NCBI RefSeq assembly: GCF_000166715.1
Contig: NZ_AEMI01000020.1
Coordinates: 62,001 to 126,000, forward strand
Direction of reading: 5' to 3'
Source: Leuconostoc gelidum subsp. gelidum KCTC 3527
GTDB taxonomy: Bacteria; Bacillota; Bacilli; Lactobacillales; Lactobacillaceae
DNA: 64,000 bases
Under the pieces are notes generated by a model that saw only the letters and a program-made list of their open reading frames with translations, was not told where the DNA came from and did no database searches. Shown one piece after another: positions 439 to 56,505 of the stretch. The position numbers were made by a program, and so were the translations under genes. Within the stretch, counting starts at the first letter, position 1. The number at the start of each line of letters is the position of its first letter.

Positions 439-656
439 ATTTTCTCCTCACTAATACTGCTGTGTTTAATCTTAATTTAATCCGTACTTGTTAAGTATAC
501 AGATCAATATTCAACAATACTATTACAAAAATATTACAAAGAAATTATTCGTTATAAATCTTGAATTATGTAGGTCTTAATATCAGTTCTAAATTAACAG
601 ACCTGACTTATATCATTTAGTATTATTGACTGAGAAATACGCTAACTTCCTGCTTA

Positions 657-1907: not shown

Positions 1908-2049
1908 GCCAGTATCTCCAATTCGATTCATATCTACTTTGTTAATAACAGACGCAATCAATTGATTTACTTTGAATATCTAATCTAATTTTAATGTCCT
2001 TATTATTAGTATAGCGATTTTCTAACCACTTAACCATTACGTCAATATT

Positions 2050-2079
2050 ACAAAAAAAAGAAGCACATATTTGTGCTTC
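2050..2079 (-). terminator. Rho-independent terminator of the dextransucrase gene
   Basis: An 8-bp stem GAAGCACA/TGTGCTTC with a 4-nt loop (2060-2079) is followed on the minus strand by eight T. It lies 25 bases after the dextransucrase stop codon. Confidence 0.85.
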
Positions 2080-2103: not shown

Positions 2104-5100
2104 TCAATCTACAGCATTACCTGCATTATCGAAGTAAATTTTTCGGCCATCGATTTGTACAGATTGGTTCGAAACCCGCTCACCTGAATTAGCATCATAA
2201 TAATGCATATGACCTGCTTCATCAATATGCGTACCGCCCTTAAGTTGTACACCGTTATCATTGAAGTAAAGAACTTGATTATTAATCGTTTGTTCTCCTG
2301 TTACGGCATGTCCTTGATTATCCAAATATAACCAAGAACCATCCGGTAACTCACCAAAGTCATTTGTTATTTTTTGACCATTGATACCTGCATAATAGCT
2401 TATTGTGCCATCACTATTTTTGACTTGATCATTTTTGACTTGTTCGCCATTCTGGTTAAAGTATACGCGGCAGCCATTAATTGTCTGTTCTCCTGTCACA
2501 GCATCACCTTGGTCATTCAAGTATAACCATGCACCATTATCTAAACGTTTGAAAGCGTTTTTGATTTGCGTACCATCATCATTGAAATAAACAATTTGAC
2601 CGTTAATGTTTTGTTGACCAGTAACAGCAATGCCTTGAGCATTCAAATAAATCCACGATTTGTTTGCTAATTCTTGCCATGTATTAGTCAAGAGATTGCC
2701 TGTCTGATCATCGAAATATCGCAAATTACCCGCAGTATCTCTAATGTCAGTTCCTTTAACCTGTACCCCATTCTGATCAAAATATTGCTCAGACGTTGAA
2801 CCATTATCTGCAGTAATGGTTGTTAATCCTAGCGCCATGTGGCCATCCGCAAAGAAATAACGCCAATTATTGTCAGGTCCTATATAGTATTGATTTGAGA
2901 CTGCTTTACCAGTCTTGTTGTAATAATACTGATTTTGGCCATCAGACAAGTAGGCATCTTGTAATTCAACACCATTAGGTAAGAAGTAATACTTTTTACC
3001 ATTAATTTGTTGCGTACCTACAACCATGTGGCCATCGTTGTCGAAATAATACCAATTTGTATTATCTTGAATAAAGGTATTCTTCGCTTGATAACCGCTC
3101 GTTGAATAAAATGATGTCTTACCATTCTCATCAATTGTAAAACCAGTGCTTGTCTTTTCACCTAACAATTGTTTAGGTAAGAAATTGTTATCACTCGACA
3201 CATTAAAGTATTGATTCGTTGCCCAATCCTTTAGTACATACCAAGCACCACGACCTTGAATATTTGAACCATTAAAGTACTTAGCTGACCACTCTGTGAT
3301 TTTAACATTGGGATTCATTGGCTTATCTGTAGAGATTTGCTTTGTTTCAAACAGAGTCGGATAGTCCGCCTTCAATTGATCTAAGAATGCGCCACCGTAC
3401 TGTGCCTGATATTGACCACCACCGATTGTTGATGAATCATATAAAGTGTGGTTGATGACGGAATCAGCGTCATCTTTTCCAGAACTATTTGTACGATCTG
3501 CTGTCACAATCTGTTCACCTGGCAAATTATATATTTGGTCAGGCACCCAATCATTAATGGCTTGAATGCCTTGTGCATGTAAAGCCCTCAAAGTATTTAC
3601 CAATTGATCAGCTGTACCATATTTCGTGGGTGTATTGTAGCCAATGTCATACCGATCTGTAAAAGCGTAACCATTTTGAACAATTGAATCTAAGAAACTT
3701 GTGTCCGTACTTGAACGGTATTGCGGTGCTAATTCAAAAGTGGTGATACCAAGACTCTTAAACAATGCCGCATTTTGTACTATTTTGACGTTAGTATACT
3801 CGTCGGCATTGGTTGGCATGGCTTGAAAATTAGAAAATCCTTCATAGATAACTTGGGAGTCTAACGCTGCATTAGAATGATAAGTCGCACCATCTGTTGA
3901 AATAGCCTTACTACTTGCTGTTCTCACATCTTGATTGTCGCTAGCACCAACAGGTACCCATGCAGCAAGGTAACCTGAAACTTGCGGATCATTGACACCA
4001 TACACCATATCTGATTTGAAAATCAATTGCCCCAAATCATTTGTACGAGCAATTGGTGCCCCAGCATCATTATTATAAATTTTCAAGCCATCTTTAGTAC
4101 TTAACATCAAGGCGCGATACTCTTGATTTTTATGCGCAGCCCCCATATTCAACACAACTTGTTCATCGTTATTTAGATTCAAATCAGTCTTGTTACTAAT
4201 AACCAGACCAATACCTTCTGTACGTGTCTCAGCATTGCCAGCATCTGTCGCCTTCATAGAACCGGTTCCATAACGGACCGAAGTAAGTACGCCTTGATTA
4301 TCATGTAGATAAGACATGCCCATACTTTGACCACCAGAAACGTACTTTACACGAGACTGCAATAGTGAAGTAATAGCATCATAATATGGTGATTTTTTAG
4401 CCATATATTGCCCATCATCAGTATATAAATCACCATAATACACACGTGGAATTGTATCCTTATTAGTTAATAATAATGCATAAGAAGATGGTATATTATA
4501 AGCAGTGTATTCTTTATCCGATTTTAATTCATCTGCATTATATATTGCAAAAGCTTTTTCAATTTCATCAGGTGTAACAGTTAAGCCATCTGATTTAGGA
4601 TTGATTTTATCTTTGACAATTTGTGCAATAACTGTTTGTACTTCACTATCATGTGCACGGATAAACGAGTAATTTGGTTGCGCTGTATTTTCAGCTGCGT
4701 CTTCTGTACGATTAACCAAGCTATTCGTAATTGTTTGTTCTAAACCACTACGTTGGCTAACTGGCACATTTAACGCATATTTCAAGCCAAGATGAATTGG
4801 AAAGTCCATTGTCAATTGATTATTACCATGTGCTTTGATATAAGCTGCATCTTTGGATTCCCAATCTTCTAAAATTGAGAGATGCGCATTGGCTTGACTA
4901 TCGCTTTGATCTATTTTATAAGCTGCTTTGAAGTAGTCGCTAGCAATTTGTAACAAGTCAGCATCCACGTTATCAACAGCATCAACTCGGTAACCATCAA
5001 AATTAGCAGTTGGATCATTTTGTGTGATAGTTCCAATGTTCATCATGTAGTACAACCAATTTAATTGTTCAGCTTGCACAACTGGATTTGAGTTATCCAC

Positions 5101-6432
5101 ATCGTTAGCTAACAACATCTCATAGCCACCCTGTTGTCCAAAATCAGTAATTTGACCTTTTTGATTAATCGGTGTGCGGTTTAATAATCGGTCATCTGAA
5201 TTTGCATCTAGTGTCTTGTCACTGTTAACATATAACAACGCCCCACCTTGAAGATGATCATTTGATTTAGCTTCACTGGTAATATTCCAGTTTGGTTGTG
5301 TCTTAATCCATTGACTGATATCTGTTTTTAGCCAATCAGTATTTCCAGACAAACTAATTCTCTGTTCAATATTTTTTTGGACTGACATCGCATTATTAGT
5401 CAGGTCACTTGTTTGCGTATTATTTGAAATGGCCACATCATCTTCTAGAAGTCCAAGTGACTGCATATATTTGAGGTAAGCAATTTGTGTATCTTTGTCA
5501 GGCCACCATGACATTAACAATGGTCGAAAATCAGTTACTGTTGATGGTGTCCATGTGGTACCTGACTTGAGAATGTCCTTAGGTCGGTACCAACTACTAG
5601 CTGTCAGGTAACCATCAACATTTGTGAAGCTATCAGATGTTAATGAATATGCAGCGTTATGCTCATTGGCTATATTCGTAAGACCTTCAGCATATTGACG
5701 ATCATTCGATGTCAATTCACCTGTTGTCTTATCAAAATAAAGCACTTGACCATCAATAACAGCAGTAAAATTTTTCTTAATTTGACCATCATCACCTACA
5801 AAATAGGTTTTTCCATCAATTTGTTTGATATTTGGTGATGCGCTTTCTACTTGCTCAAGTTTTTGCGTATCACTTTTATTTGTTGTGGCTGTTTTTGAAG
5901 TTGCTACAACTGTTTTGTCTGATTTTGTGGTGTCAGTCGTTTTGTAAACTGTCGCTGCTGTCTGCGTGTCAGTTGTTTTGGTTGTTGGTACTGTCGTCGT
6001 ATCTTTTGCTGGTGCTTCAACTGTTTTGTCTGTTGTTGGTACTGTCGTGATATCTTTTACTGGTGTCTCAACTGGCTTATCTGCTGTTGGTACTGTCGTC
6101 GTATCTTTTGCTGGTGTCTCAACTGACTTATCTACTGTTGGTACCGCCGTGGTGGCTTTTGACGTTGCTACTACTTTGTCTGTAACTGGTTCTACTGACT
6201 TTTCCACCACCGGTGTTGATGCTTTATCTGCAACTGTTGGTGCTAGGTTGGGTTGGCTTTTTGCAGAATCTTCTTTAACAGCCATTGTCGTGCTATTTGT
6301 ATCTATTGTATCAGCACGACTATCAGATATTGTAGCGCCGAATATGGCTAAAGAAAAAATTCCAGCTGTCACCAATATTTTCCCTGATTTATACAACTTC
6401 TTGCGTTCACATACTACTCTTTCATTCCTCAT
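2104..6432 (-). CDS. Secreted GH70 glucansucrase (dextransucrase)
   Basis: This 1442-residue enzyme splits extracellular sucrose and polymerises the glucosyl units into alpha-glucan, releasing fructose. A KxYKxGK-type signal peptide (residues about 10-40) is followed by a Thr/Val/Pro/Lys-rich region with 17-residue repeats, a short glucan-binding segment (about 205-240), and the circularly permuted GH70 barrel. Motif [15 protein letters not shown] carries the nucleophile D484, motif III LEDWE the acid/base E522, and motif [10 protein letters not shown] the stabiliser D595. Motif I ([13 protein letters not shown]) comes after them, as expected for GH70. The spacings 38 and 73 match the catalytic triad of known Leuconostoc dextransucrases. 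SEVQT after the third Asp is the form found in alpha-1,6-forming enzymes rather than alternansucrase. The C-terminus holds YG/cell-wall-binding repeats; there is no LPxTG anchor. Linkage specificity is an inference. Confidence 0.95.
5984..6190 (-). repeat. 51-bp tandem repeats in the dextransucrase N-terminal variable region
   Basis: The unit beginning GTTGGTACTGTCGT (plus-strand view) recurs at 5984, 6035, 6086 and 6137, exactly 51 bp apart. It encodes imperfect 17-residue repeats of the type TTVPTxDKxVExPxKDT. This low-complexity stretch between signal peptide and catalytic core is typical of the variable region of glucansucrases. The whole-codon unit keeps frame when copies are gained or lost. 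Confidence 0.85.
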
Positions 6433-7703: not shown

Positions 7704-7763
7704 GAAAAATAAAGATTATTTTAACACATATTTTCAGATATATATCATGCTACTTTTCTATAC

Positions 7764-7921
7764 AGATAAGTCACGGTATCGCGCTCAAGCGCTTACTCGT
7801 GCTTTACCACCACTTCGCTGAGATAAGTCACGGTATCGCGCTCAAGCGCTTACTCGTGCTTTACCACCACTTCGCTGAGATAAGTCACGGTATCGCGCTC
7901 AAGCGCTTACTCGTGCTTTAC
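7764..7921 (-). repeat. 57-bp tandem repeat (about 2.8 copies) carrying the trmD stop codon
   Basis: Read on the minus strand, a unit starting GTAAAGCACGAGTAAGCGC is present at 7921-7865, at 7864-7808 and, in its first 44 bases, at 7807-7764. The copies appear identical. The first copy supplies the last four codons (V-K-H-E) and TAA stop of trmD. Because 57 is 19 codons, the same VKHE-stop recurs in frame in every copy. A small GCGCT-CA-AGCGC hairpin lies in each unit. It looks like a recent tandem duplication of the trmD 3' end. Confidence 0.9.
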
Positions 7922-13584: not shown

Positions 13585-14496
13585 TCAAATAGTTGTGATA
13601 CTAACTTGCTGATAAATTTCCTCAATTTTTTGTTTTGTTGCTATATCGTTACTAAAGGCTGTTGCAGTACCACTAGCTACAGCAATTTTAAAACTTTCTA
13701 ACACATCTTCTGACTGTAACCATGTACCGATAAAACCAGCAATCATTGAATCACCAGCACCGGCTGAATTTTGAACTTGACCTCTAATTGGTTTTGCAAA
13801 ATATTGTGTCTGCTGCGTGAAAAGTAGCGCACCATCACCAGCAAGTGACACAATAGCATGTTGCGCACCATCTATTATCAATTGTCTTCCCCATCGTAGG
13901 AGATCCGCTTGCGTGGCTAAATCAGTATCATAAAGTTGTGCTAATTCCCTACGATTTGGTTTTACTAGCAATGGTCGGTCGGCCAAAGCCGTTTTTAACT
14001 GTTGTCCAGTCGTATCAATGACAAATCGTGCCCCACATAATTGAATTTTATGTAGCATTTGTTGATAAACATGATTATCCAAACTCTTAGGCACACTGCC
14101 TGAAAGAATAACAACGTCGTCATGTGTTAAACAATCAAATTTTTGGAAGAATATTGCTAATTCTTGCGCCGTAATCGCCGGACCAGTTGCATTAATTTCC
14201 GTCTCGTTGGCAGCTTTTATTTTTAAATTGATACGCGTATTACCAGCTATTTGTGTAAAATCTTGCGTTAAATGTGTGTCACGTAAGGTATTTTGTAAAT
14301 GTTGACCGGTAAATCCACCTAGAAATCCCCAAGCTGTATTATCAATAGCTAACTGACCTAGCAGTCGACTCACATTAATGCCCTTACCACCTGGAAAAAT
14401 AGTTTCTGAATCAGCGCGATTTGTTTCACCTAATGTCAATGTTTTCAAACGTGTTATAAAATCCAATGATGGATTCAAAGTGACCGTATAAATCAT
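13585..14496 (-). CDS. fruK: 1-phosphofructokinase
   Basis: The 303-residue PfkB-family kinase converts the fructose-1-phosphate made by FruA into fructose-1,6-bisphosphate. The N-terminal MIYTVTLNPSLDF, the GGKGINVSRLL glycine motif and the C-terminal NSAGAGDSMIAGF motif with the catalytic Asp are present. The start is preceded by GAAGAGGGGAAATT, an SD that overlaps the TAG stop region of fruR. That SD (14501-14510) is perfectly complementary over 10 nt to a loop of the candidate small RNA at 37182-37314. Middle gene of the fruRKA operon. Confidence 0.95.
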   Translation of the reverse strand: MIYTVTLNPSLDFITRLKTLTLGETNRADSETIFPGGKGINVSRLLGQLAIDNTAWGFLGGFTGQHLQNTLRDTHLTQDFTQIAGNTRINLKIKAANETEINATGPAITAQELAIFFQKFDCLTHDDVVILSGSVPKSLDNHVYQQMLHKIQLCGARFVIDTTGQQLKTALADRPLLVKPNRRELAQLYDTDLATQADLLRWGRQLIIDGAQHAIVSLAGDGALLFTQQTQYFAKPIRGQVQNSAGAGDSMIAGFIGTWLQSEDVLESFKIAVASGTATAFSNDIATKQKIEEIYQQVSITTI

Positions 14497-26797: not shown

Positions 26798-26872
26798 AAA
26801 AAAACCGCTTCGTGTTGGGTATTAAGAAAACTTTATTGATTTTCTTAATACCCGACACATTGGCGGTTTTTA
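26798..26872. terminator. Long bidirectional terminator between yslB and dltD
   Basis: Arms AAAACCGC...GTGT...GGGTATTAAGAAAA and the matching complement form an interrupted stem of more than 25 bp, with A- and T-runs at its ends. The dltD stop codon lies within it. Confidence 0.8.
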
Positions 26873-28153
26873 TTTGAATTGTTCCAAATTATCGGATGTT
26901 GGCATAAGATTTTGCCACTCACGTGATAAATAATTATTGTTAATATGATAATTTGTTGGCTTATAACCATTTGTTAAAAATGGATTGATATGCCTGTCTG
27001 CAGCTACCCAGCCATTCCATCCCAGATGAATTGTATCTTGCATAAAGTAATTCGCATTACCTTCATGCGAAAAATCAGCAATATTATTAAACCCTTGTGT
27101 CGTCAACTGCTCCTTAATTTTGTCGACACTTTGATAGTACATATCTTGGTTTAATCCTGTATAATGAGCCCAACGCTGATTAACTGGTTGAATAATAAAC
27201 AAGACATCTGTATGTTGTTTTGCAAACTCTGCTAACACTGCTTGAAAATCAGCATACTCGTCTGACTGACGATAATCAAAAGATTTCTGTGACTGAGCCA
27301 ATTGCTTTAAACGCATTTTTACACGGTATCTGTAAAATGAATTTTTAATTTGAAAATCATTATTTGTTGTTTCTTTTTCACCAATTTTTGTTGCTTGCCG
27401 TAATAATGATGAGGCACTATCCTGTTTAGGTAATATTTTTAATGCCGGTTCAACACGCTTATCCCAATTGTTCGATCGTGAAAAATTTGAAAATAGTTGA
27501 TCATCACGTAACAATAAGCGATGACGTAAACTTAGTAGGTTGATGTCAGTTTTTGACAAGGGTTTATTATCACTAATTTTAGTAATCAATGTTGCGTAAA
27601 AATCACTGTCTTTAATTTGTTTTTGTTCCAACAAACGACCTGCAATAAAGCGATCAGTTGGCGTAATATGATTGATATTACGTAACCAATCCACTGTTTG
27701 TAACGGTGAATAAAATTCAGGAAAGAAGAGTTTTGTATCTTTCTTAGTAAACCACTGCTGTGAAATAATAAAAACTGCTTGCTTTTTGTGTAATGCAGGT
27801 GTCATTTCTTGCATGCCTAAATAATGAGTCAGCGATTCCGTGCCCGCCTGACCTAGTAAAAATGGTTGGTAGTTTCTATGATACTTTGCAGCCAACATTG
27901 AAGGGTGCATGGTATCCAAACGTAATAGCTCACTTGACCCGAAAAAAGGCACATAACGTCTAGAATGATCACTAAACGCCGCTGTTTTTATAGCCTCTCC
28001 TTTAAAGGTATTCTTGGAAAAAGAAACCGATGCATTACGTATATTTTTATGTGTAATGTGATTTAAAGAAAAAGGTGCTAAAAATAATGCAAAAATCAAT
28101 ACAAAAGCGACCACTACTGGTCCAAAAATCCACCATAACCCCCTTTTTTTCAT
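26870..28153 (-). CDS. dltD: D-alanyl transfer protein DltD
   Basis: The 427-residue protein has one N-terminal membrane helix (WWIFGPVVVAFVLIFALFL) and an extracellular SGNH-like domain with FGSSELLRLD (catalytic Ser) and DTIHLGWNGW (His/Asp side). It completes D-alanine transfer to teichoic acid outside the membrane. Length is standard. Last gene of dltXABCD, five bases after dltC. Confidence 0.95.
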   Translation of the reverse strand: MKKRGLWWIFGPVVVAFVLIFALFLAPFSLNHITHKNIRNASVSFSKNTFKGEAIKTAAFSDHSRRYVPFFGSSELLRLDTMHPSMLAAKYHRNYQPFLLGQAGTESLTHYLGMQEMTPALHKKQAVFIISQQWFTKKDTKLFFPEFYSPLQTVDWLRNINHITPTDRFIAGRLLEQKQIKDSDFYATLITKISDNKPLSKTDINLLSLRHRLLLRDDQLFSNFSRSNNWDKRVEPALKILPKQDSASSLLRQATKIGEKETTNNDFQIKNSFYRYRVKMRLKQLAQSQKSFDYRQSDEYADFQAVLAEFAKQHTDVLFIIQPVNQRWAHYTGLNQDMYYQSVDKIKEQLTTQGFNNIADFSHEGNANYFMQDTIHLGWNGWVAADRHINPFLTNGYKPTNYHINNNYLSREWQNLMPTSDNLEQFK

Positions 28154-37181: not shown

Positions 37182-37314
37182 AAAAAAACCCCTGACCGAA
37201 GAGGGGATGGTCAGGGGCACGATAACCGAAGTTATCAATTAAATCAATCAGTAATTGGGGGGCTGATTGAAACATTACTAGGGGAGTAATGAAACTCAAA
37301 TATTATTCGAGTAT
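37182..37314 (-). ncRNA. Candidate small RNA with five hairpins and C-rich loops
   Basis: On the minus strand an array of stem-loops follows a TATAAT at 37326-37321. In order: CTCGAA/TTTGAG (37311-37295); CATTACT/AGTAATG with loop CCCCT (37291-37273); TCAATCAG/CTGATTGA with loop CCCCCCAATTA (37270-37244); GATAAC-TTCG-GTTATC (37236-37221); and CCCCTGACC/GGTCAGGGG with loop ATCCCCTCTTC (37217-37189), followed by seven T. The last is a textbook terminator. There is no ORF. Three loops expose CCCC/UCCCCU, which resembles anti-Shine-Dalgarno sRNAs such as LhrC of Listeria. The -35 is weak. No family was recognised. Confidence 0.7.
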
Positions 37315-37440
37315 GTTTTAATTATATACCCTCATCGTCCTGTTTACATATCATAAGTTTTGCTGTTTCATTACATAAATATTACATTCTGAAATTCATT
37401 ATACAAATTTATGTTTTTGAAATCAATACATACCACACTC

Positions 37441-47937: not shown

Positions 47938-48612
47938 TTAAATAAAATAGTTATATCCTGGATTCAGCTCAATAATCTTACCTGTACGCTTATATACAAT
48001 CCATTCTGCAATGTCTGTCGTATAATCTCCGATGCGTTTCAAATAACCAGCAATCACTAAATAATCTGCTGCTGAATCAACTAAATCAGCATCTTCTTTC
48101 ATGCCTTCAACTGAATCAAAACGCACTTGGGCTGCACGTTTAGATAACGTTTGATTTTCTTCAGCAATAGATTCAGCCCCTAAAGCGTCATTTTTAATAT
48201 AATAATCCATCACAGTTGAGACCATTGTTGCTACTTGTTCGCCCATTTCACCAAGTGCCTGCTCAACACTAGAAATATGTTTTGTTCCCTTAACACGAAT
48301 AGTTGAATTAGCAATATTACGTGCTTGATCACCCATTCGTTCCAATACAGAGACTGCTTTCAAAATTGTAACAATTTTGCGTAAATCAGTTGTAACTGGT
48401 TGGTACAAAGCAATCATCTCAAAAGTTTTCTTTTCGATAGCCGCTTCTCGTTCATTAATTTGATGATCATTATCTAAAATGGCTTTCGCGCCTTCACGAT
48501 CATGATCTACAAATGACTGGACAGATTTTTGAATAGTTTGGGCAACAAGCATACCCATTTCTGTAAATGAATTATCTAAATCTGCTAGTTCTTCATCAAA
48601 TAATCGTCGCAT
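47938..48612 (-). CDS. phoU: Phosphate transport regulator PhoU
   Basis: The 224-residue protein is built of two repeated three-helix bundles with metal-binding E/D-xxx-D patterns (SVLERMGDQARNIANSTI and GYLKRIGDYTTDIAEWIVY). It damps phosphate uptake and the PhoR kinase when phosphate is plentiful. Start at MRRLFDEEL with AAAGGAGAAATAAT upstream. Last gene of the pst operon. Confidence 0.95.
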   Translation of the reverse strand: MRRLFDEELADLDNSFTEMGMLVAQTIQKSVQSFVDHDREGAKAILDNDHQINEREAAIEKKTFEMIALYQPVTTDLRKIVTILKAVSVLERMGDQARNIANSTIRVKGTKHISSVEQALGEMGEQVATMVSTVMDYYIKNDALGAESIAEENQTLSKRAAQVRFDSVEGMKEDADLVDSAADYLVIAGYLKRIGDYTTDIAEWIVYKRTGKIIELNPGYNYFI

Positions 48613-48675
48613 ATTATTTCTCCTTTTCACCATGCTGTCTATATAATTATGAATTAACTTTATTTGTTTCTAATA

Positions 48676-49446
48676 TCACCCAAAGCGACCACTGACGTAA
48701 TCTTGTGTTTCTTGCCTTTGTGGATTCAAGAAAATGTGCTTTGTTGCATCTACCTCAATAAGATCGCCATTTAAAAAGAAAGCTGTACGATCTGATATAC
48801 GTGATGCCTGTGACATTGAATGTGTAACAATAATCATCGCATAGTCATCACGTAAATTCAATAGCGTTTCTTCAATGTTATGACTCGATACTGGATCTAA
48901 AGCTGAAGTCGGTTCATCTAACAATAACAGTTCTGGTGAAGTTGCCAAAACACGCGCAAGTGATACACGTTGTTGTTGACCACCTGACAAGCCAAGAGCT
49001 GACTTATGCAAATCATCCTTAACTTCTTCCCATATTGATGCTTGTTTAAGAGATTTTTCCACAGCCTCATCAAGTACAGCTTTATCTTTGATACCAGCCA
49101 ATTTAAGACCAAAAATAACATTTTCATAAATAGAAAAAGGGAATGGATTAGGTTGTTGAAACACCATGCCAATTCGTTTACGTAAATCAACAGTATCTGT
49201 TGTTGGTGCATAGATATCTGTTCCCTTAAAATCAAACGAACCAGTTACTGTCACATTATCTTCCAAATCATGCATACGATTAATTGCTCGAATATAAGTT
49301 GATTTTCCCGATCCAGATGGGCCGATAAGCGCTGTAATTCCTTTTTCTGGAAAATTTAAGTTAATCCCATGTAATGCTTCTTTTTGACCATACCATAACT
49401 TAACATCACGTGTTTCAAGTATATTTTTTTGTTTAATATCTGTCAT
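48676..49446 (-). CDS. pstB: Phosphate ABC transporter ATP-binding protein PstB (second copy)
   Basis: The 256-residue ATPase has Walker [15 protein letters not shown], signature [15 protein letters not shown] and Walker [17 protein letters not shown], followed by the switch His in VTHSMSQ. Phosphate family features: [20 protein letters not shown]. It is coupled to the upstream pstB by an ATGA overlap; two PstB subunits may form a heterodimer, as in other lactic acid bacteria. Confidence 0.95.
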
Positions 49447-50282
49447 CCGAAGTTCCCCGAAATATAATCATTTGTCAGCTCAACTTTTGGTCTTGTAAAA
49501 ATTTTACGTGTCAAATCATACTCAATCACTTTTCCCATATGAAAAAAAGCTGTATAATCACTAATTCTAGCCGCTTGTTGCATATTATGTGTCACAATGA
49601 TAATTGTATACTGATTTTTTAACTTTAGTAGTGTATCTTCAACCTGCGCGGATGAAATCGGATCAAGTGCACTGGATGGTTCATCTAAAAGTAATATATC
49701 TGGTTTCAAAGCCAATGCCCGTGCAATAACCAAACGTTGTGCTTGTCCACCTGATAAAGCTAAGGCTGATTTGTCTAACTCATCTTTAACTTGATCCCAT
49801 AACGCCGCTTGTTTCAAGCTAGTTTCAACAATTTCATCAAGTTCTTGTTTTGTATATTGTCCACGTTGTGTCAGTGCAAAAGTAATATTATTATAAATAG
49901 ATTTAGCAAATGGATTAGGACGTTGGAAAACCATGCCAATATGACGTCGCATTTCGTATACATCAATCGCTTTTGTATTAATATCTACGCCACGATACAT
50001 GATATTGCCTTTAACTGTCGCAACACTATCATTCATACGATTTAGCGACCGCAAGAATGTTGATTTACCCGAACCTGACGCACCAACTAAACTGGTAATT
50101 TTATAACGTTCAAACGATAAATCACCTTCGCTCAAAGCCAAATTTTGACCATAACTCACTTGCAAATTTTTTGTTGATATTGCAATTTCATGATCACCTG
50201 CACCAACATCATAGATATAACGTTCTGGCTTATTTTCAGTAATAAATTCACTTGCTGGTTTTAAATCGATATTATTTACCAT
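49443..50282 (-). CDS. pstB: Phosphate ABC transporter ATP-binding protein PstB (first copy)
   Basis: The 279-residue ATPase has Walker [15 protein letters not shown], signature [15 protein letters not shown] and [12 protein letters not shown]. Compared with its neighbour it has an N-terminal extension of about 30 residues before the domain begins. TATGGAGAAAAA gives a clear SD. It lies between pstA and the second pstB. Confidence 0.95.
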
Positions 50283-50354
50283 TTTTTCTCCATAACTCGG
50301 TTACTTAACAATTCCCTAATGACATCACACTTAGTCTCTATCATTTTATTTTTG

Positions 50355-51239
50355 TTATGCACTGGTCAACTTTTTGTATAATTGTGCACCGATTTTACGT
50401 GCACTAAGATTGAACAATAACACAACAATTATTAAAACTGCTGATGCACCAGCAGACACAGCATTCGCATCTGGCATAATGCCTTCAGAATTAATCTTCC
50501 AAATATGTACTGCTAAGGTTTCGGCAGGACGCATAGGATTTAAAGGGCTTGAAATATTAAATGGATTCCAGTCTGTAAAGTTTAATGCAGGGGCAGATTG
50601 TCCAGCAGTGTAGATTAATGCAGCAGCTTCACCAAAAACACGACCTGCAGATAATACAACACCTGTCACAATTGAGGGAACTGCAGCTGGTAGAATGATA
50701 TGAATCACTGTTTCCCAGCGTGACAAGCCCAGCGCAGATCCCGCTTCACGTTGTAAATTTGGAATCTGGGCTAAGCTTGTTTCAATAGATCGTGTCAACA
50801 AAGGTAAATTAAAAAAAGTTAGTGCAATTGCACCTGATAGTATTGAAAATCCAAAATGAAATTGAACGACAAATATCAAAAATCCAAACAAGCCAACGAC
50901 TACTGAAGGCAAAGAGCTTAAAATTTCAATTGCTGTACGAACGATCGTTGTAAATCTACCTTTTTTTGAATACTCGTTCAAATAAATAGCAGCACCTAAA
51001 GCGATTGGAAAACTAATGAGCATAGCTAATATTAGCAAGTAAAAAGAATTAAATAATTGAATTCCGATACCACCACCTGCTTCAAATGCTCTAGCGGGCG
51101 ATGTTAAAAAGTGCCAAGACAAATTTGGCACACCGCGAATTAAAATAAAAGCAAGCATGGCAATCAAAATTAACGCAACAATGCCAGAAATCATATAAAT
51201 TACAACTGTTGCTATTTTATCAGCACTTTTTGCATTCAT
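50355..51239 (-). CDS. pstA: Phosphate ABC transporter permease PstA
   Basis: The 294-residue permease has six membrane helices and the EAA-type loop REAGSALGLSRWETVIHIILPAA-like segment that docks to PstB. ALGAAIYLNEYSKKG and the conserved GVVLSAGRVFGEAAALIYTAG are typical. It shares one base with pstC upstream. Confidence 0.95.
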   Translation of the reverse strand: MNAKSADKIATVVIYMISGIVALILIAMLAFILIRGVPNLSWHFLTSPARAFEAGGGIGIQLFNSFYLLILAMLISFPIALGAAIYLNEYSKKGRFTTIVRTAIEILSSLPSVVVGLFGFLIFVVQFHFGFSILSGAIALTFFNLPLLTRSIETSLAQIPNLQREAGSALGLSRWETVIHIILPAAVPSIVTGVVLSAGRVFGEAAALIYTAGQSAPALNFTDWNPFNISSPLNPMRPAETLAVHIWKINSEGIMPDANAVSAGASAVLIIVVLLFNLSARKIGAQLYKKLTSA

Positions 51240-52162
51240 TATTTCATCTCTCCTCTGCGCCCAATAGCACGTACAACTAAGTTAAATACCAATGACATTA
51301 CTAACAAAATCATTGCTAGTGTCCATAACACATCGTTTTGTAATGATCCCATCACAGTGTTCCCAATCCCCATGGTCAAGATTGATGTTAATGTTGAGGC
51401 GGGTGATGTCAAGTTATGTGGCATCAGCGCTGCGTTGCCAATAACCATTTGTACTGCCAGCGCCTCACCAAAAGCGCGTGCCATGCCAAAGACAATAGCG
51501 GTTAAAATACCTGGGGTTGCCGCTCGCAACACAACTTTATAAATCATTTGCCAACGTGTAGCGCCAATAGCCAAAGCTGATTCACGATAGTGTCTGGGAA
51601 CTGACTTTAATGTATCTACAGTCATCGAGGTGATTGTTGGTAAGACCATTACAAACAGGACAATTGTACCTGATAGAATACCGAATCCAGAACCACCAAA
51701 AACACTCCGGATAAAAGGTACAACAACTGTCAATCCAATAAATCCATAGACAACAGATGGAATACCAACCAACAATTCAATGACTGGTTGCATAATTTTT
51801 GTCCCACGTTTTTGGGCAATTTCAGTCATAAATAGCGATGTCCCAATAGCAAATGGTGTCGCTACAATTGCCGCCAAAAACGTTACCAAAAACGATCCAA
51901 GAATCATTGGCAACGCGCCTATATAAGGTTGTTTCGTTTGTGGATTAACTACCGATGGATTCCATGTTGAACCAAATAGAAAGTCTTTAACATGGACGCC
52001 ATCATGGAAAAATGTTGATAAGCCACGACTCATAACGAAAGCAAAAATCGATACAACAACAATGACAATTAACGATAAGGCTGCCAAACTAACAGCTCGT
52101 CCTAGTGAATCTTTTTTTGTTGACTCAGATTTTTGCATCAACTTCTGTGTAATGTTATCCAT
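51239..52162 (-). CDS. pstC: Phosphate ABC transporter permease PstC
   Basis: The 307-residue partner of PstA shows LLVGIPSVVYGFIGL and the docking loop RESALAIGATRWQMIYKVVL with GMARAFGEALAVQMVIGN. Six predicted helices after a cytoplasmic start rich in Lys. Translationally coupled to pstA. Confidence 0.95.
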   Translation of the reverse strand: MDNITQKLMQKSESTKKDSLGRAVSLAALSLIVIVVVSIFAFVMSRGLSTFFHDGVHVKDFLFGSTWNPSVVNPQTKQPYIGALPMILGSFLVTFLAAIVATPFAIGTSLFMTEIAQKRGTKIMQPVIELLVGIPSVVYGFIGLTVVVPFIRSVFGGSGFGILSGTIVLFVMVLPTITSMTVDTLKSVPRHYRESALAIGATRWQMIYKVVLRAATPGILTAIVFGMARAFGEALAVQMVIGNAALMPHNLTSPASTLTSILTMGIGNTVMGSLQNDVLWTLAMILLVMSLVFNLVVRAIGRRGEMK

Positions 52163-52290
52163 TTTATCTCCATAGCATCAGACATCGTCATATAAAACGA
52201 ATACGTACGATTTGCACATACTCATTAAACAACATCAAATGCATTAATTTTCTTGTATTTCAATTTGGTTAATCAATTCGTATCAATCAA

Positions 52291-53172
52291 TTACTTTTTT
52301 ATAATGTTCCCATTCAACTGACGCGTGACACGCATATCGTGAATAGAGATATATCCCAATTTTGGCACTAAAGTGCTCTGAATTTCTTTTGACGTTAAAT
52401 AATTCAAAAATTTAGCAACTTCTGGTTTTGGTTTACCATTAGTATAGACATGCTCATACGACCAAATAGGATACATACCTGATGCAACATTTTTATTTAA
52501 AGGTGATACATGATTAACTGAAGCCGCTACGATTGTATCATCAATATAGCCAAAAGCTGCGTATGAAATTGCGCCCGGTGTGGTTGCTACAATGGAACGT
52601 ACCATTCCTGAAGAATCTTGTTCCTGTGCTTCAATACTTTGTTTGCCAAGCAGACCCCACTTTTCAAATGTGGCACGTGTCCCAGATCCCGCTGCACGAT
52701 TGATAATAACAATCTTTTGATTTTTACCACCAACTTGTTGCCAATTCGTTACTTTTCCGGTAAAAATTGCTTGTAACTGTGCTGTTGATAAATCCTTTAG
52801 GCCAATATCTTTGTTCAACAGTGGTGCAATACCGACAACTGCTACCTGATGATCTACCAGTCGATTAGCATTAATGCCTTCCTTTTCTTCCGCAAAAACG
52901 TCAGAATTTCCTAAGTCTACGGCACCTTGCGACACTTGACTTAGTCCTGTTCCTGTACCACCACCCTGCACGTTAACAAAGGTACCTAAATTAATTTTTG
53001 CATATTCTTCACCTGCTGCTTCAACAAACGGTTGTAAAGCTGTCGAACCAACAGCCGTAATCGATGTTCCTGAAGCACTTTTATCTCGTGTTGCATAAGC
53101 AGTTCCAAGTGCTGCTGCAATACTAACGGCCACAATTGTTGCTACAATCGTTCCGCGATGCGATTTCGACAT
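52291..53172 (-). CDS. pstS: Phosphate-binding protein PstS (operon copy)
   Basis: The 293-residue protein catches phosphate outside the cell for PstCAB. Phosphate ligands lie in AVGSTALQPFVE and VIINRAAGSGTRATFEKW. The N-terminus (TIVATIVAVSIAAALGTAYATRD) is a hydrophobic anchor with no lipobox Cys, so it is not an obvious lipoprotein. I start at MSKSHRG with GGGAGG upstream. It is preceded by Pho boxes, then pstC after a 128-base gap. A second PstS lies upstream of phoR. Confidence 0.93.
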   Translation of the reverse strand: MSKSHRGTIVATIVAVSIAAALGTAYATRDKSASGTSITAVGSTALQPFVEAAGEEYAKINLGTFVNVQGGGTGTGLSQVSQGAVDLGNSDVFAEEKEGINANRLVDHQVAVVGIAPLLNKDIGLKDLSTAQLQAIFTGKVTNWQQVGGKNQKIVIINRAAGSGTRATFEKWGLLGKQSIEAQEQDSSGMVRSIVATTPGAISYAAFGYIDDTIVAASVNHVSPLNKNVASGMYPIWSYEHVYTNGKPKPEVAKFLNYLTSKEIQSTLVPKLGYISIHDMRVTRQLNGNIIKK

Positions 53173-53222
53173 GATAATGCCTCCCAAGATTAAACTACTA
53201 CTACTTCATTATCTTAAAACCA

Positions 53223-53261
53223 TGTAAATGTATTAACAGTGCTATGTAAAGATTAGGTAAA
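53223..53261 (-). promoter_or_regulatory. Pho box array upstream of the operon pstS
   Basis: TGTAAA at 53223, a degenerate element at 53234, TGTAAA at 53245 and GGTAAA at 53256 (plus view) are phased by 11 bp. This is the TT(A/T)ACA-repeat pattern bound by PhoP in Firmicutes when read on the minus strand. Confidence 0.65.
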
Positions 53262-53269
53262 GAAAATAT

Positions 53270-54625
53270 TTACAAAGGTAAAGTGACACTGATAGTGGTT
53301 CCCACTCCAACCTGTGAGTTTACTTTAACTTCACCGTTATGTTTACTAACAAGCTCATTAACAATGGCTAAGCCTAGACCTGTACCGCTAGCAATTGTTC
53401 TTTGTCGAGATTCATCACCTCGATAAAAACGTTCAAAAATGCGCGATTGCTGGTTTTTAGGAATACCAATGCCGGAATCTTTAACATTAATTTGCCAATG
53501 CTGATGATCTTTATATACTGTCACACTAACATCACCACCTTGCTTGTTATACTTCACAGCATTTATAATCAAATTTTGTAGAATTGTCTCCAAGTCAGTT
53601 TTTAATCCGTGGACAACAAAATTTTGTGACACATTATTCTTAAGCGTAATATGTTTCGTCGCTGCCATTGTTTTAATATGTTGCCATTGTTCATCAACTA
53701 AAATTTTTATAGTCAGTTTTGTATCTACTGCATCATTTTTTTGTTTCACACGTGATAATGACAAAATATCAATAACAAGCGATGATAGACGGTCTGATTC
53801 GTCAGCAACAATTTTTAAAAATTGCTGCCGTGTATTTGGATCTTCACCTGCGGGTCCTTGTAATGTTTCTACAAAACCAGTGATCGCAGTTAGTGGTGTT
53901 TTAAGTTCATGTGAGGCGTTGGCTAAAAAATCAGATTGCATGCGTTCAACCTGTAAAACAGAAGTTAAATCATATATAATAATCATCACTTCAGCATGCT
54001 TCAGATCACCTTGGTGATAAAGTGTGCTAACTTCATATTGTTTCACCTCGCCATTTATCTGTAAATTCAAAATAGATTGTTGGTTATGTTGCGTATTAAA
54101 AGTTTGCGTAATTAATTCTGACAGTGTGAATTGTTTAATCACTAAACTTTCTGCAATCGGTATTTTAGGTTGTTGTATACCTAATAAATCTGCAGCAGTT
54201 GCGTTAAAAACATCAATTACATGTCGTCGATTCACATTAATTACACCTACTGGTAAACTTGCAAGTAGTGATTGATAGTTCGTCACATCACGTTGTGCAG
54301 TTTGCTGCGTCTGTTTAATATAGTTTTGTAAAGTATTAAATTGATGAATCAAATCATAATACGGAGAATTTGGCTCTGTTAACACACCCCTAGGTTCTTG
54401 TCCTTGAATTGTAGCCAACATGCGGTTTTGCATGACTTGCAATTCTGTCTGCTGACCTGCTTCCCAAAATCGCGCTACCCATATGCCACTCGCTGTAGCA
54501 ATCAACAGACAAACAATCGTAATCATCCACTGCTGACGATCAAAAGACATCATATTTCCAAGTATCACACTCATTATCAAGTTAGGAACTAAAAAGGACA
54601 AGCATTTAATTATTTTTTTTGTCAT
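53270..54625 (-). CDS. phoR: Phosphate-response sensor histidine kinase PhoR
   Basis: The 451-residue kinase has two adjacent membrane helices (about 8-50) with almost no external loop, a PAS domain (about 100-200) beginning LLASLPVGVINVNRRH, the phospho-acceptor H in FLANASHELKTPLTAITGF and the ATPase DSGIGIPKNQQSRIFERFYR, GTGLGLAIV. Lacking an external sensor, it probably responds through PhoU/PstB or the PAS domain. TATTGGAGTGACAT gives the SD. It is separated from phoP by a pstS gene and a terminator. Confidence 0.93.
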   Translation of the reverse strand: MTKKIIKCLSFLVPNLIMSVILGNMMSFDRQQWMITIVCLLIATASGIWVARFWEAGQQTELQVMQNRMLATIQGQEPRGVLTEPNSPYYDLIHQFNTLQNYIKQTQQTAQRDVTNYQSLLASLPVGVINVNRRHVIDVFNATAADLLGIQQPKIPIAESLVIKQFTLSELITQTFNTQHNQQSILNLQINGEVKQYEVSTLYHQGDLKHAEVMIIIYDLTSVLQVERMQSDFLANASHELKTPLTAITGFVETLQGPAGEDPNTRQQFLKIVADESDRLSSLVIDILSLSRVKQKNDAVDTKLTIKILVDEQWQHIKTMAATKHITLKNNVSQNFVVHGLKTDLETILQNLIINAVKYNKQGGDVSVTVYKDHQHWQINVKDSGIGIPKNQQSRIFERFYRGDESRQRTIASGTGLGLAIVNELVSKHNGEVKVNSQVGVGTTISVTLPL

Positions 54626-54652
54626 ATGTCACTCCAATATAACTATCATAAC

Positions 54653-54676
54653 AAAAAAAAACCGCTTTCGCGGAAT
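54653..54676 (-). terminator. Terminator between the first pstS and phoR
   Basis: CCGC-GAAA-GCGG with flanking A/T pairs and nine T on the minus strand. It lies just before the phoR start, so phoR expression would depend on read-through or its own promoter. Confidence 0.85.
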
Positions 54677-54695
54677 TAAAACTATGCTAATTATT

Positions 54696-55601
54696 TTACT
54701 TGTTTTCAACTTTACCAGTTGCATCGCGAGTTACTTTCATATCAGTCAGACCAATATACCCCAGTTTTGGTACAATAGTTTTTTGTACTTCTTTTGTGGC
54801 AAAATACTTCAAAAATGCTTTTGTTGCTTCTGTTTCAGTGCCTTTGGTATACATATGTTCATATGCCCAGATTGGCCATGAATTATCTTCAACATTTTTC
54901 TTGTTCGGTGTTACTTTGTCAACATCTAACGCCTTGATTCCCGATGCATCTAAGTAGGCAAAAGCTAAATAAGAAATGGCACCGGGTGTTGTGGATACAA
55001 TCTTTTGAACAGTACCGTTCGAATCTTGTTCGGTTGATTGTACGGCATTTTGACCATCTAACACGTTCTTTTCAAATACCGAACGTGTGCCAGATCCGGT
55101 TGCACGGTTAATGATAACAATTTTTTCATCCTTACCACCAACTTCTTTCCAATTAGTAATTTTGCCAGTAAAGATATCACGCAATTGTGTCTTAGAAATG
55201 TTTGATACTTGTACATCAGAATTGACCACAGGCGCAATACCAACAACAGCTACTTGATGATCCTTTAACTTTGAAGCATCAACACCATCTTTTTCTTCCG
55301 CGAATACATCAGAGTTCCCAATTTGAACAGAACCATTAGCTACTTGACTCAAGCCCGCACCAGACCCACCGCCTTGAACAGTGATTGTCACACCAGGATT
55401 TTTTTCTTGAAAAGATGTACCAACTTGTTCGGCCAATGGTTGTAGCGCTGTTGATCCAAGCGATAGCACTTTACCACTTAACTTTTTTGTCGTTGAATCC
55501 GTAGTGGTTTTATCTGTATGTGAATTAGAGTTGGCATAAATAGCTAGGCCCGCTGCAATAATAACCACACCACCGACAACGCCAATAATCGTTTTGTTCA
55601 T
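54696..55601 (-). CDS. pstS: Phosphate-binding protein PstS (copy next to phoP)
   Basis: The 301-residue protein has the same ligand loops as its paralogue (LGSTALQPLAEQ, VIINRATGSGTRSVFE) and a hydrophobic N-terminal helix (IIGVVGGVVIIAAGLAIYA) without lipobox Cys. The two PstS proteins are clearly similar but not recent copies. I start at MNKTIIG with GGGAGAAGTGTTC upstream. It sits between phoP and phoR, has its own Pho boxes and ends at a strong terminator, so it may be an inducible single-gene message. Confidence 0.93.
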   Translation of the reverse strand: MNKTIIGVVGGVVIIAAGLAIYANSNSHTDKTTTDSTTKKLSGKVLSLGSTALQPLAEQVGTSFQEKNPGVTITVQGGGSGAGLSQVANGSVQIGNSDVFAEEKDGVDASKLKDHQVAVVGIAPVVNSDVQVSNISKTQLRDIFTGKITNWKEVGGKDEKIVIINRATGSGTRSVFEKNVLDGQNAVQSTEQDSNGTVQKIVSTTPGAISYLAFAYLDASGIKALDVDKVTPNKKNVEDNSWPIWAYEHMYTKGTETEATKAFLKYFATKEVQKTIVPKLGYIGLTDMKVTRDATGKVENK

Positions 55602-55623
55602 GAACACTTCTCCCTTTGTTTAG

Positions 55624-55683
55624 GCTTCGCGTGGAAGCATATGTAATGTAAACTCGGTTTGTAGTAGAGGCTCTTGGTAGCCT
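55624..55683 (-). promoter_or_regulatory. Hairpins in the leader of the first pstS
   Basis: AGGCT-ACCAAG-AGCCT (55683-55668) and GCTTC-CACGC-GAAGC (55638-55624) both lie between the Pho boxes and the SD on the minus strand. TTTACATTACA also lies between them. Function unknown. Confidence 0.35.
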
Positions 55684-55740
55684 TTCCTTGTTTACAAATC
55701 ATATATTACGCACCTTGTGTCAAAGAAAGCAACCTAAAAT

Positions 55741-55767
55741 TGTCATCGTTATGTAAAGCAATGTAAA
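55741..55767 (-). promoter_or_regulatory. Pho box array upstream of the first pstS
   Basis: TGTCAT at 55741, TGTAAA at 55752 and TGTAAA at 55762 (plus view) form a 10-11-bp-phased array typical of PhoP-binding sites. It lies just after the phoP stop. Confidence 0.65.
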
Positions 55768-55782
55768 CAGATATTTACATTG

Positions 55783-56505
55783 CTAATTGACCATTGTGTA
55801 GCCAAAGCCTCGCACAGTTTTTAATATTTGTGGTGATTTTGGATTGTTTTCGACTTTCTCTCGTAAATTACTAATATGCATATCTACCATTCGACTTTCA
55901 CCAACAAACTCATAACCCCATACTGCCGTTAAAATTGTTTCACGATCAATCACACGACCAACTCTTTGCGAAAAATACAATAACAATTCGTATTCTCGTG
56001 GCGTCAAAGTTAAATTTTTGCCAGATTTAGTCACAACTTTTTTGTTATCATCAATCACAATATCTTGTATTTCAATAACATCTGGTTTATCTGAAGCTGA
56101 GCGTTCAGTTTGGGATCGTCGCAGAACAGCTTTTAATCGCGCCAATACTTCTCGTAGACTAAATGGTTTGGTGATATAATCATCTGCACCTAATTCCAGT
56201 CCAAACACACGATCAAACTCATCACCTTTAGCTGTAACTAACAATACAGGGGTAGATATTTTATCTTGACGTAAATTTTTCAACACTGTCATGCCGTCCA
56301 TAACTGGTAACATTAAATCAAGTAAAATGGCATCAAAGGTTTGTTCACCAATAAGTTCATATGCTGATTGACCATCCGTTGCTATTGTCACTTGATACCC
56401 ATTTTGTTCTAAATTATATTTCAACAATGTTGAAATTGCTGGTTCGTCATCTACTACTAAAATTTTTGTCATGATATTAATACACTTGACTTTCGCCCAG
56501 TGCAT
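55783..56505 (-). CDS. phoP: Phosphate-response regulator PhoP
   Basis: The 240-residue OmpR-family regulator has a receiver domain (VVDDEPAISTLLKY; phospho-acceptor Asp in AILLDLMLPVMDG; late KPFSLREVLARL) and a winged-helix DNA-binding domain (LTPREYELLLYFSQ, RMVDMHISNLREKVE). The start with an SD (GGAGAGGA) gives 11 residues before the usual MTKILVVDDE; the internal ATG has no SD. Confidence 0.95.
   Translation of the reverse strand: MHWAKVKCINIMTKILVVDDEPAISTLLKYNLEQNGYQVTIATDGQSAYELIGEQTFDAILLDLMLPVMDGMTVLKNLRQDKISTPVLLVTAKGDEFDRVFGLELGADDYITKPFSLREVLARLKAVLRRSQTERSASDKPDVIEIQDIVIDDNKKVVTKSGKNLTLTPREYELLLYFSQRVGRVIDRETILTAVWGYEFVGESRMVDMHISNLREKVENNPKSPQILKTVRGFGYTMVN

Follow-up and report, generated by a model that had tools for sequence, protein, structure and literature searches.

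What does the gene-free stretch between rplS (37835-37476) and dinB (37088-36003) of Leuconostoc gelidum encode? We addressed this question in a window of 64,000 nucleotides, i.e., the whole stretch of DNA that was analysed, to which all coordinates refer unless another locus is named. As judged from its sequence, the stretch is a genuine, previously uncatalogued, stand-alone small RNA gene of ~133 nt (37182..37316, minus strand), assigned from its fold z-score, its conservation in the genus and the covariation of its stems. It lies on the strand of its two neighbours.

Architecture of the small RNA gene

The gene is preceded on the minus strand by a -10 box, TATAAT (37326-37321), that is kept in relatives and from which we placed the transcription start at ~37316-37314. 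An alignment of relatives revealed no conserved -35 element upstream of this box. The predicted transcript folds into five consecutive hairpins. H1 (37312-37294) is defined by fold and covariation, and H2 (37291-37273) has a near-fixed stem and presents the loop CCCCU (37284-37280). H3 (37270-37244), defined by fold and alignment, carries the loop CCCCCCAAUUA at 37262-37252 with the run CCCCCC. H4 (37236-37221; fold and covariation) closes with a UUCG loop (37230-37227). The last hairpin, H5 (37218-37189), folds as an intrinsic terminator with the loop AUCCCCUCUUC (37208-37198) and ends in a run of seven T (37188-37182). The TATAAT box, the five stem-loops and the terminator with seven T that the first-pass annotation had placed on the minus strand are all present. 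An inverted repeat with a T-run stands between rplS and the small RNA gene. Elsewhere in the window, a long and near-perfect inverted repeat at 26800-26875 (CCGC...GTGTTGGGTATTAAGAAAA / TTTTCTTAATACCCGACAC...GCGG) is probably a bidirectional terminator.

The RNA has a minimum free energy of -43.2 kcal/mol. Dinucleotide-shuffled sequences give -20.7 ± 3.3, which corresponds to z = -6.85, and none of 200 shuffles folded as well. The density of hairpins, described earlier as far above that of the flanking DNA, stands out locally and against shuffles. In raw folding energy, however, the RNA is equalled or surpassed by about 27 of the 6388 sliding 133-nt windows across the 64 kb, many of which overlap one another. 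Thus, stability alone is not decisive, and conservation is. The most stable fold of the window belongs to a tandem repeat of ~57 bp (GTAAAGCACGAGTAAGCGCTTGAGCGCGATACCGTGACTTATCTCAGCGAAGTGGTG) at ~7760-7920, just 3' of trmD. The plus strand of the small RNA stretch also folds well (z = -5.35), as expected of any hairpin array; the gene was assigned to the minus strand because of the T-run, the -10 box and the conservation.

Conservation in Leuconostoc and Weissella

A covariance model found the small RNA in 19 of 19 Leuconostoc genomes searched and also in L. fallax. A DNA search likewise matched each of the 18 further Leuconostoc genomes that were searched, together with one genome of another genus (L. 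fallax). Within the Leuconostoc alignment H2 is invariant and H1 and H3 are near-invariant, while H4 and the terminator covary, H4 showing double-sided compensatory changes at six of six pairs. Overall, 98.2% of the alignment cells are paired and 12 pairs have double changes, values reached by none of 500 shuffles. The model built from the Leuconostoc copies (R1) further matched 11 genomes of the Weissella group (genus g18) with E-values of 1e-9 to 1e-4. A second model (R2), built from these matches, found the RNA in 26 of 28 genomes of that group, and the Weissella matches include Weissella confusa, cibaria, oryzae and muntiaci. Copy number is one per genome in both Leuconostoc and Weissella. 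A second R1 match in L. fallax (locus L087, 7725-7844) lies inside a gnd-like gene and was discarded as chance.

The Weissella form differs from that of Leuconostoc in most of its stem sequences, with layout and loops unchanged. Double-sided compensatory changes occur at 41 of its 52 pairs, and 94.3% of the cells are paired as opposed to 33-51% for slid structures. H1 is compensated at all 8 pairs, and H3 covaries at 11/11 pairs while its loop remains UCCCCAA-like. The H2 stem, in contrast, is near-invariant, with double changes at one of nine pairs versus 8/8, 11/11, 10/11 and 11/13 in the other helices. That H2 alone resists change indicates a constraint on its sequence as well as on its structure. 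The three C-rich sites in the loops of H2, H3 and H5 are found in all Leuconostoc copies and in most Weissella copies. Among Leuconostoc copies the C-runs differ in length by one to three bases and are themselves kept; most Weissella copies retain the loops UCCCC and CCCCCUCUU plus the H2 sequence, and CCCUCUU within the terminator loop is fixed in nearly all relatives. The UUCG tetraloop highlighted by the first-pass annotation is present, but it is not conserved: the H4 loop reads UUCG, UACG, UUAU or GAGA across relatives.

At gathering threshold, no Rfam family matches the window or its nearest relatives, and sub-threshold matches (TarA with 28.5 bits against a threshold of 80; MicF, rli32 and others) were judged to be chance. 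No comparable small RNA of Leuconostoc or Weissella came up in our literature search. The idea of an undescribed small RNA is thus borne out by conservation across the genus, covarying stems and the lack of an Rfam match in the window and nearest relatives, and the covariance search over relatives that had been proposed came out strongly in its favour, with conserved loops, in both Leuconostoc and the Weissella group. Taken together, the small RNA is almost certainly a conserved structured RNA.

The H2 hairpin complements a translation start

The 5' arm and loop of H2, UUUCAUUACUCCCC, are the complement of GGGGAGUAAUGAAA, i.e., of a Shine-Dalgarno (SD) sequence followed by AUG-AAA, in Leuconostoc and Weissella. 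The equivalent segment of other genera complements GGAGGAGUAAAAUGAAAAA, comprising SD, spacer, AUG and a Lys codon. The UUUCAUU of H2 is kept as a sequence beyond what pairing requires. We therefore ascribe the freezing of the H2 stem, while the other stems drift, to the complementarity of its arm and loop to a translation start. The first-pass annotation had assigned the anti-SD role to C-rich loops, as in LhrC; the C-runs are indeed kept, but the sequence of the H2 stem matters too, and not the loop alone. In Leuconostoc, the H2 complement leaves 2 nt between GGGGAG and AUG, which is below the usual SD spacing, so the two contacts may act with a bulge or separately.

A wider family and its relationship to LhrC

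R2 also matched three further genera, from which we built a third model (R3). It matches 80 of 401 Lactobacillaceae genomes, distributed over 16 of 40 sampled genera, a genus count that is approximate because the weakest matches have E-values near 1e-3 and iterative searches can drift. The RNA occurs in all Leuconostoc genomes searched, and its family extends far past that genus, with related forms in many lactic acid bacteria. The R3 members inspected have in common the hairpin UUUUUCAUU..ACUCCUCC..AAUGAAAAA, which is usually accompanied by a second C-loop hairpin, as well as a CCUUACUCCUUUU linker and a terminator. TTCACA-type repeats often stand upstream, and the sequence is reminiscent of Listeria LhrC. 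Some other Lactobacillaceae genera hold two to four copies per genome, partly in tandem; some of the related RNAs at loci L191, L192, L198, L199 and L200 are separated by only 200-1000 bases, an arrangement also seen in the LhrC clusters of Listeria. In two loci of genus g19 (L204 and L201) an intermediate form links both branches: its terminator loop, CUCCCCCCUCUUG, resembles that of Weissella, and it is preceded by repeats of the TTCACA type, of which L204 has three half-sites at 11-bp spacing. A weak R3 match (24 bits, E 0.003; L062, 62-159) just 5' of walR in a Lactobacillaceae MAG could reflect a second RNA or chance.

When applied to Listeriaceae LhrC loci, R3 gave 38 matches with E-values of 3e-6 to 0.05, the first evident chance match being at 0.3, and these matches fall on LhrC copies wherever coordinates were compared, nearly all copies being matched. 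R1 matched 8 LhrC copies (E 2e-5 to 0.01) and R2 recovered some, the model E-values being rough. Since the broader models recover Listeria LhrC, the small RNA looks like a remote five-hairpin relative of it. In the reverse direction, R3 scores the Leuconostoc RNA only at E of about 0.05, so that the link between Leuconostoc and LhrC runs through intermediates, and the Rfam LhrC model (RF00616) gave no match in the window at gathering (110 bits) or near the feature at E ≤ 10. In view of these weak reverse scores, we describe the RNA as working like LhrC and probably being its remote relative, rather than as LhrC.

The comparison with LhrC1-5 of Listeria (RF00616) extends to architecture. Both carry UCCC motifs in their loops and terminator, with three redundant C-rich sites that include the first loop and the terminator loop (here H2, H3 and H5). 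The 5' arm of LhrC stem A, AUUUUCAUU, is complementary to AAUGAAAAU, just as the UUUCAUU arm of H2 is to the start-codon region AUGAAA. Both are stand-alone RNAs with response-regulator-type promoter control. Expression of LhrC depends on LisR and is induced by envelope stress, and LhrC represses at the RBS; for the Leuconostoc RNA, response-regulator control is predicted from an OmpR-type repeat upstream. LhrC differs in having two hairpins and a single-stranded CU-rich linker, whereas the Leuconostoc RNA has five consecutive hairpins with short linkers and CU-rich sites all in loops; moreover, LhrC is 111-114 nt long and present in five copies, and the Leuconostoc RNA in one.

Such a resemblance could also arise by convergence, with two C-rich small RNAs having evolved anti-SD loops, an anti-AUG arm and a terminator independently of each other. 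Function dictates sequences of the anti-SD and anti-start kind, which are also rich in AU, and the weak direct scores for Leuconostoc and the silent Rfam model would fit such an origin. However, R3 recovers LhrC copies specifically, and a 5' AACAAC-type leader, the single-stranded ACUCCYUUUUUG and, in some Lactobacillaceae genera, a multicopy tandem layout are held in common. We therefore regard convergence as possible but doubtful, and common, though remote, descent with Listeria LhrC as likely rather than proven. The likeness to LhrC pointed out in the first-pass annotation is supported, but may reflect remote homology instead of analogy. The question of convergence concerns descent and not mechanism, and either answer is compatible with antisense action. 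Opinion is evenly balanced on the further idea that LhrC is one branch of an ancient Lactobacillales-wide superfamily of response-regulator-controlled small RNAs, whose core hairpin would be an antisense copy of a generic secreted-protein start (SD-spacer-AUG-Lys-Lys) and from which forms with two, three or five hairpins, in single or multiple copies, would have arisen.

Translation starts as the predicted targets

The small RNA probably blocks translation of cell-surface genes via its C-rich loops, much as LhrC does. On the lapB mRNA, three redundant UCCC-containing sites of LhrC contact the SD sequence, and stem A base-pairs, through its 5' side, with the stretch from -2 to +7 that contains the start codon (PMC4132741). 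RsaE/RoxS, FsrA and SprD are further UCCC-motif small RNAs of low-GC Gram-positives whose motif contacts the SD sequence (PMC4132741). These RNAs differ from that of Leuconostoc in structure and hairpin number, with no Rfam match at a useful score. The CiaR-controlled csRNAs of streptococci also combine several hairpins, C-rich anti-SD loops and a response regulator with direct repeats; their repeats are of the TTTAAG type as opposed to TGTAAT-N5-TGTAAT here, and they gave no Rfam match.

A search for AGAGGGG-N3-10-ATG returned 8 matches versus 3 for the control, among them fruK-like, AI-2E-type permease, glycosyltransferase and fabH genes. The best candidate in the window, a PfkB/fruK-like gene (13585-14496), was rejected, its AAGAGGGGA being lost in most relatives, and no conserved target emerged among the candidates checked in the window. 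The mean duplex energy for pairing to the translation starts of 58 window genes was no better than with shuffled loops.

Our search turned up no conserved mRNA target, and the RNA repeats a similar loop several times, as protein-sequestering RNAs do. Both observations would suit an alternative in which the C-rich loops capture a protein or act as a sponge for another RNA, instead of keeping ribosomes off many mRNAs. We consider this improbable, as the loops are C-rich and not of the GGA type found in CsrA-binding RNAs, the conservation of the H2 5' arm as the complement of AAUGAAA would be left unexplained, and LhrC, like further UCCC small RNAs, targets ribosome binding sites (PMC4132741).

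Genomic context

The position between rplS and dinB, on the same strand, would also be compatible with a cis-acting element, i.e., a dinB leader or attenuator or an rplS trailer. Yet the neighbours vary within Leuconostoc (rplS/dinB, gntP or rplS/yslB, gntP/gtrA) and are htrA and a DUF1934-like gene in Weissella, where the small RNA lies 3' of htrA at the end of the walR-walK-yycI-walJ-htrA locus. Together with its own -10 box and terminator and the inverted repeat that separates it from rplS, this makes a cis-acting element very improbable. That the stretch is a short protein-coding gene, as a crossing frame of 49-57 aa (a 49-aa ATG frame in the window) might suggest, can practically be dismissed: the frame varies from 8 to 49 aa among relatives, the loop-length shifts of 1-2 bases break it in most of them, which speaks against a peptide gene, and compensatory changes track stems rather than codons.

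Promoter repeats point to a response regulator

Upstream of the gene, in a block conserved in relatives, lies the direct repeat TGTAAT-ATTTA-TGTAAT (37386-37370, minus strand), a likely response-regulator box that forms the distal pair of half-sites at ~-72/-61. The alignment reveals degenerate third and fourth half-sites, AGCAAA-N5-TGATAT (37364-37348, minus strand; TGTCAA-N5-AGATAC in L. falkenbergense), proximal to the promoter and at a distance to the -10 box equal to that of the single box in locus L054. The upstream half-sites share an 11-bp register, as is usual for the sites of OmpR-family response regulators, and end at the -35 region. Among repeat spacings, a lag of 11 ranks first in three Lactobacillaceae groups, which is a descriptive result as the sequences are related.

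The pattern TGTMAT-N5-TGTAAY has 6 matches in the genome and none for the reversed control. One of these matches, a TGTAAT-N5-TGTAAT-type box (522..538, minus strand), lies 22 nt 5' of a TATACT before a cpsB-like exopolysaccharide operon, and box and spacing recur before exopolysaccharide genes in four other Leuconostoc species (G005, G007, G009 and G011). It is probable from these patterns that the small RNA and the cpsB-like operon belong to one regulon. A further box of this type (2036-2052, minus strand) precedes a glycosyltransferase gene beside a GH70 glucansucrase (2104-6432).

The box at 37386-37370 fits TGTWAH-N5-TGTWAH, the WalR/VicR consensus; in relatives, the WalR-type box is only TGTMAT/YGTAAY-like. 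Across the genome, the WalR-type pattern TGTAAH-N5-TGTAAH shows no enrichment (8 matches versus 9 for the control), and a genome-wide WalR regulon drawn from it was discarded as unsupported. Several Weissella small RNA promoters carry TTTACA-N5-TTCACA instead. In comparison with the PhoP-type TTHACA-N5-TTHACA, the pst promoter reads TTTACM-N5-TTTACA in the coding direction, whereas the box of the Leuconostoc RNA has the opposite orientation, with ATTACA. The window also holds a cluster of a phoP-type regulator, pstS, phoR, a second pstS, a pst transporter and phoU (47938-56505), and the promoter of the second pstS has four 11-bp-spaced TTTACM-type half-sites, i.e., a PhoP box. Together, the 11-bp repeats, the box shared with exopolysaccharide genes and the walRK-htrA locus of Weissella suggest an OmpR-family regulator and a role at the envelope. 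WalR, which fits by consensus and by neighbourhood, is a candidate for this regulator; the unenriched WalR pattern and the TTTACA-N5-TTCACA of several Weissella promoters speak against a firm assignment.

A model for the small RNA

Genome comparison shows an element with its own -10 box and terminator, compensated stems, and C-rich loops and one hairpin arm kept by sequence. Our favoured reading, which we hold with reasonable confidence on these sequence grounds, is a stand-alone, trans-acting, LhrC-like RNA that is controlled by a response regulator and blocks translation initiation by antisense pairing. In this model, an OmpR-family response regulator, most likely WalR or of the LisR type, would bind the 11-bp-spaced repeats and activate the RNA upon disturbance of the envelope. 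Initial contact with G-rich SD sequences would then be made through the C-rich loops of H2, H3 and the terminator; from H2, its 5' arm could carry the duplex on across the start codon, with UUUCAUU paired to AAUGAAA. Translation of mRNAs for surface or secreted proteins that start with AUG-AAA would thereby be closed.

Leuconostoc and Weissella, like their relatives, are of major importance as food fermenters and as producers of dextran and exopolysaccharides. Being conserved, present in one copy and clear in its structural model, the RNA offers an immediate test system for the control of envelope stress and exopolysaccharide formation. If the link to LhrC is true, a small RNA described as Listeria-wide has relatives across harmless and tractable bacteria, in which the original function of the RNA and the redundancy among the C-rich loops would become experimentally approachable.
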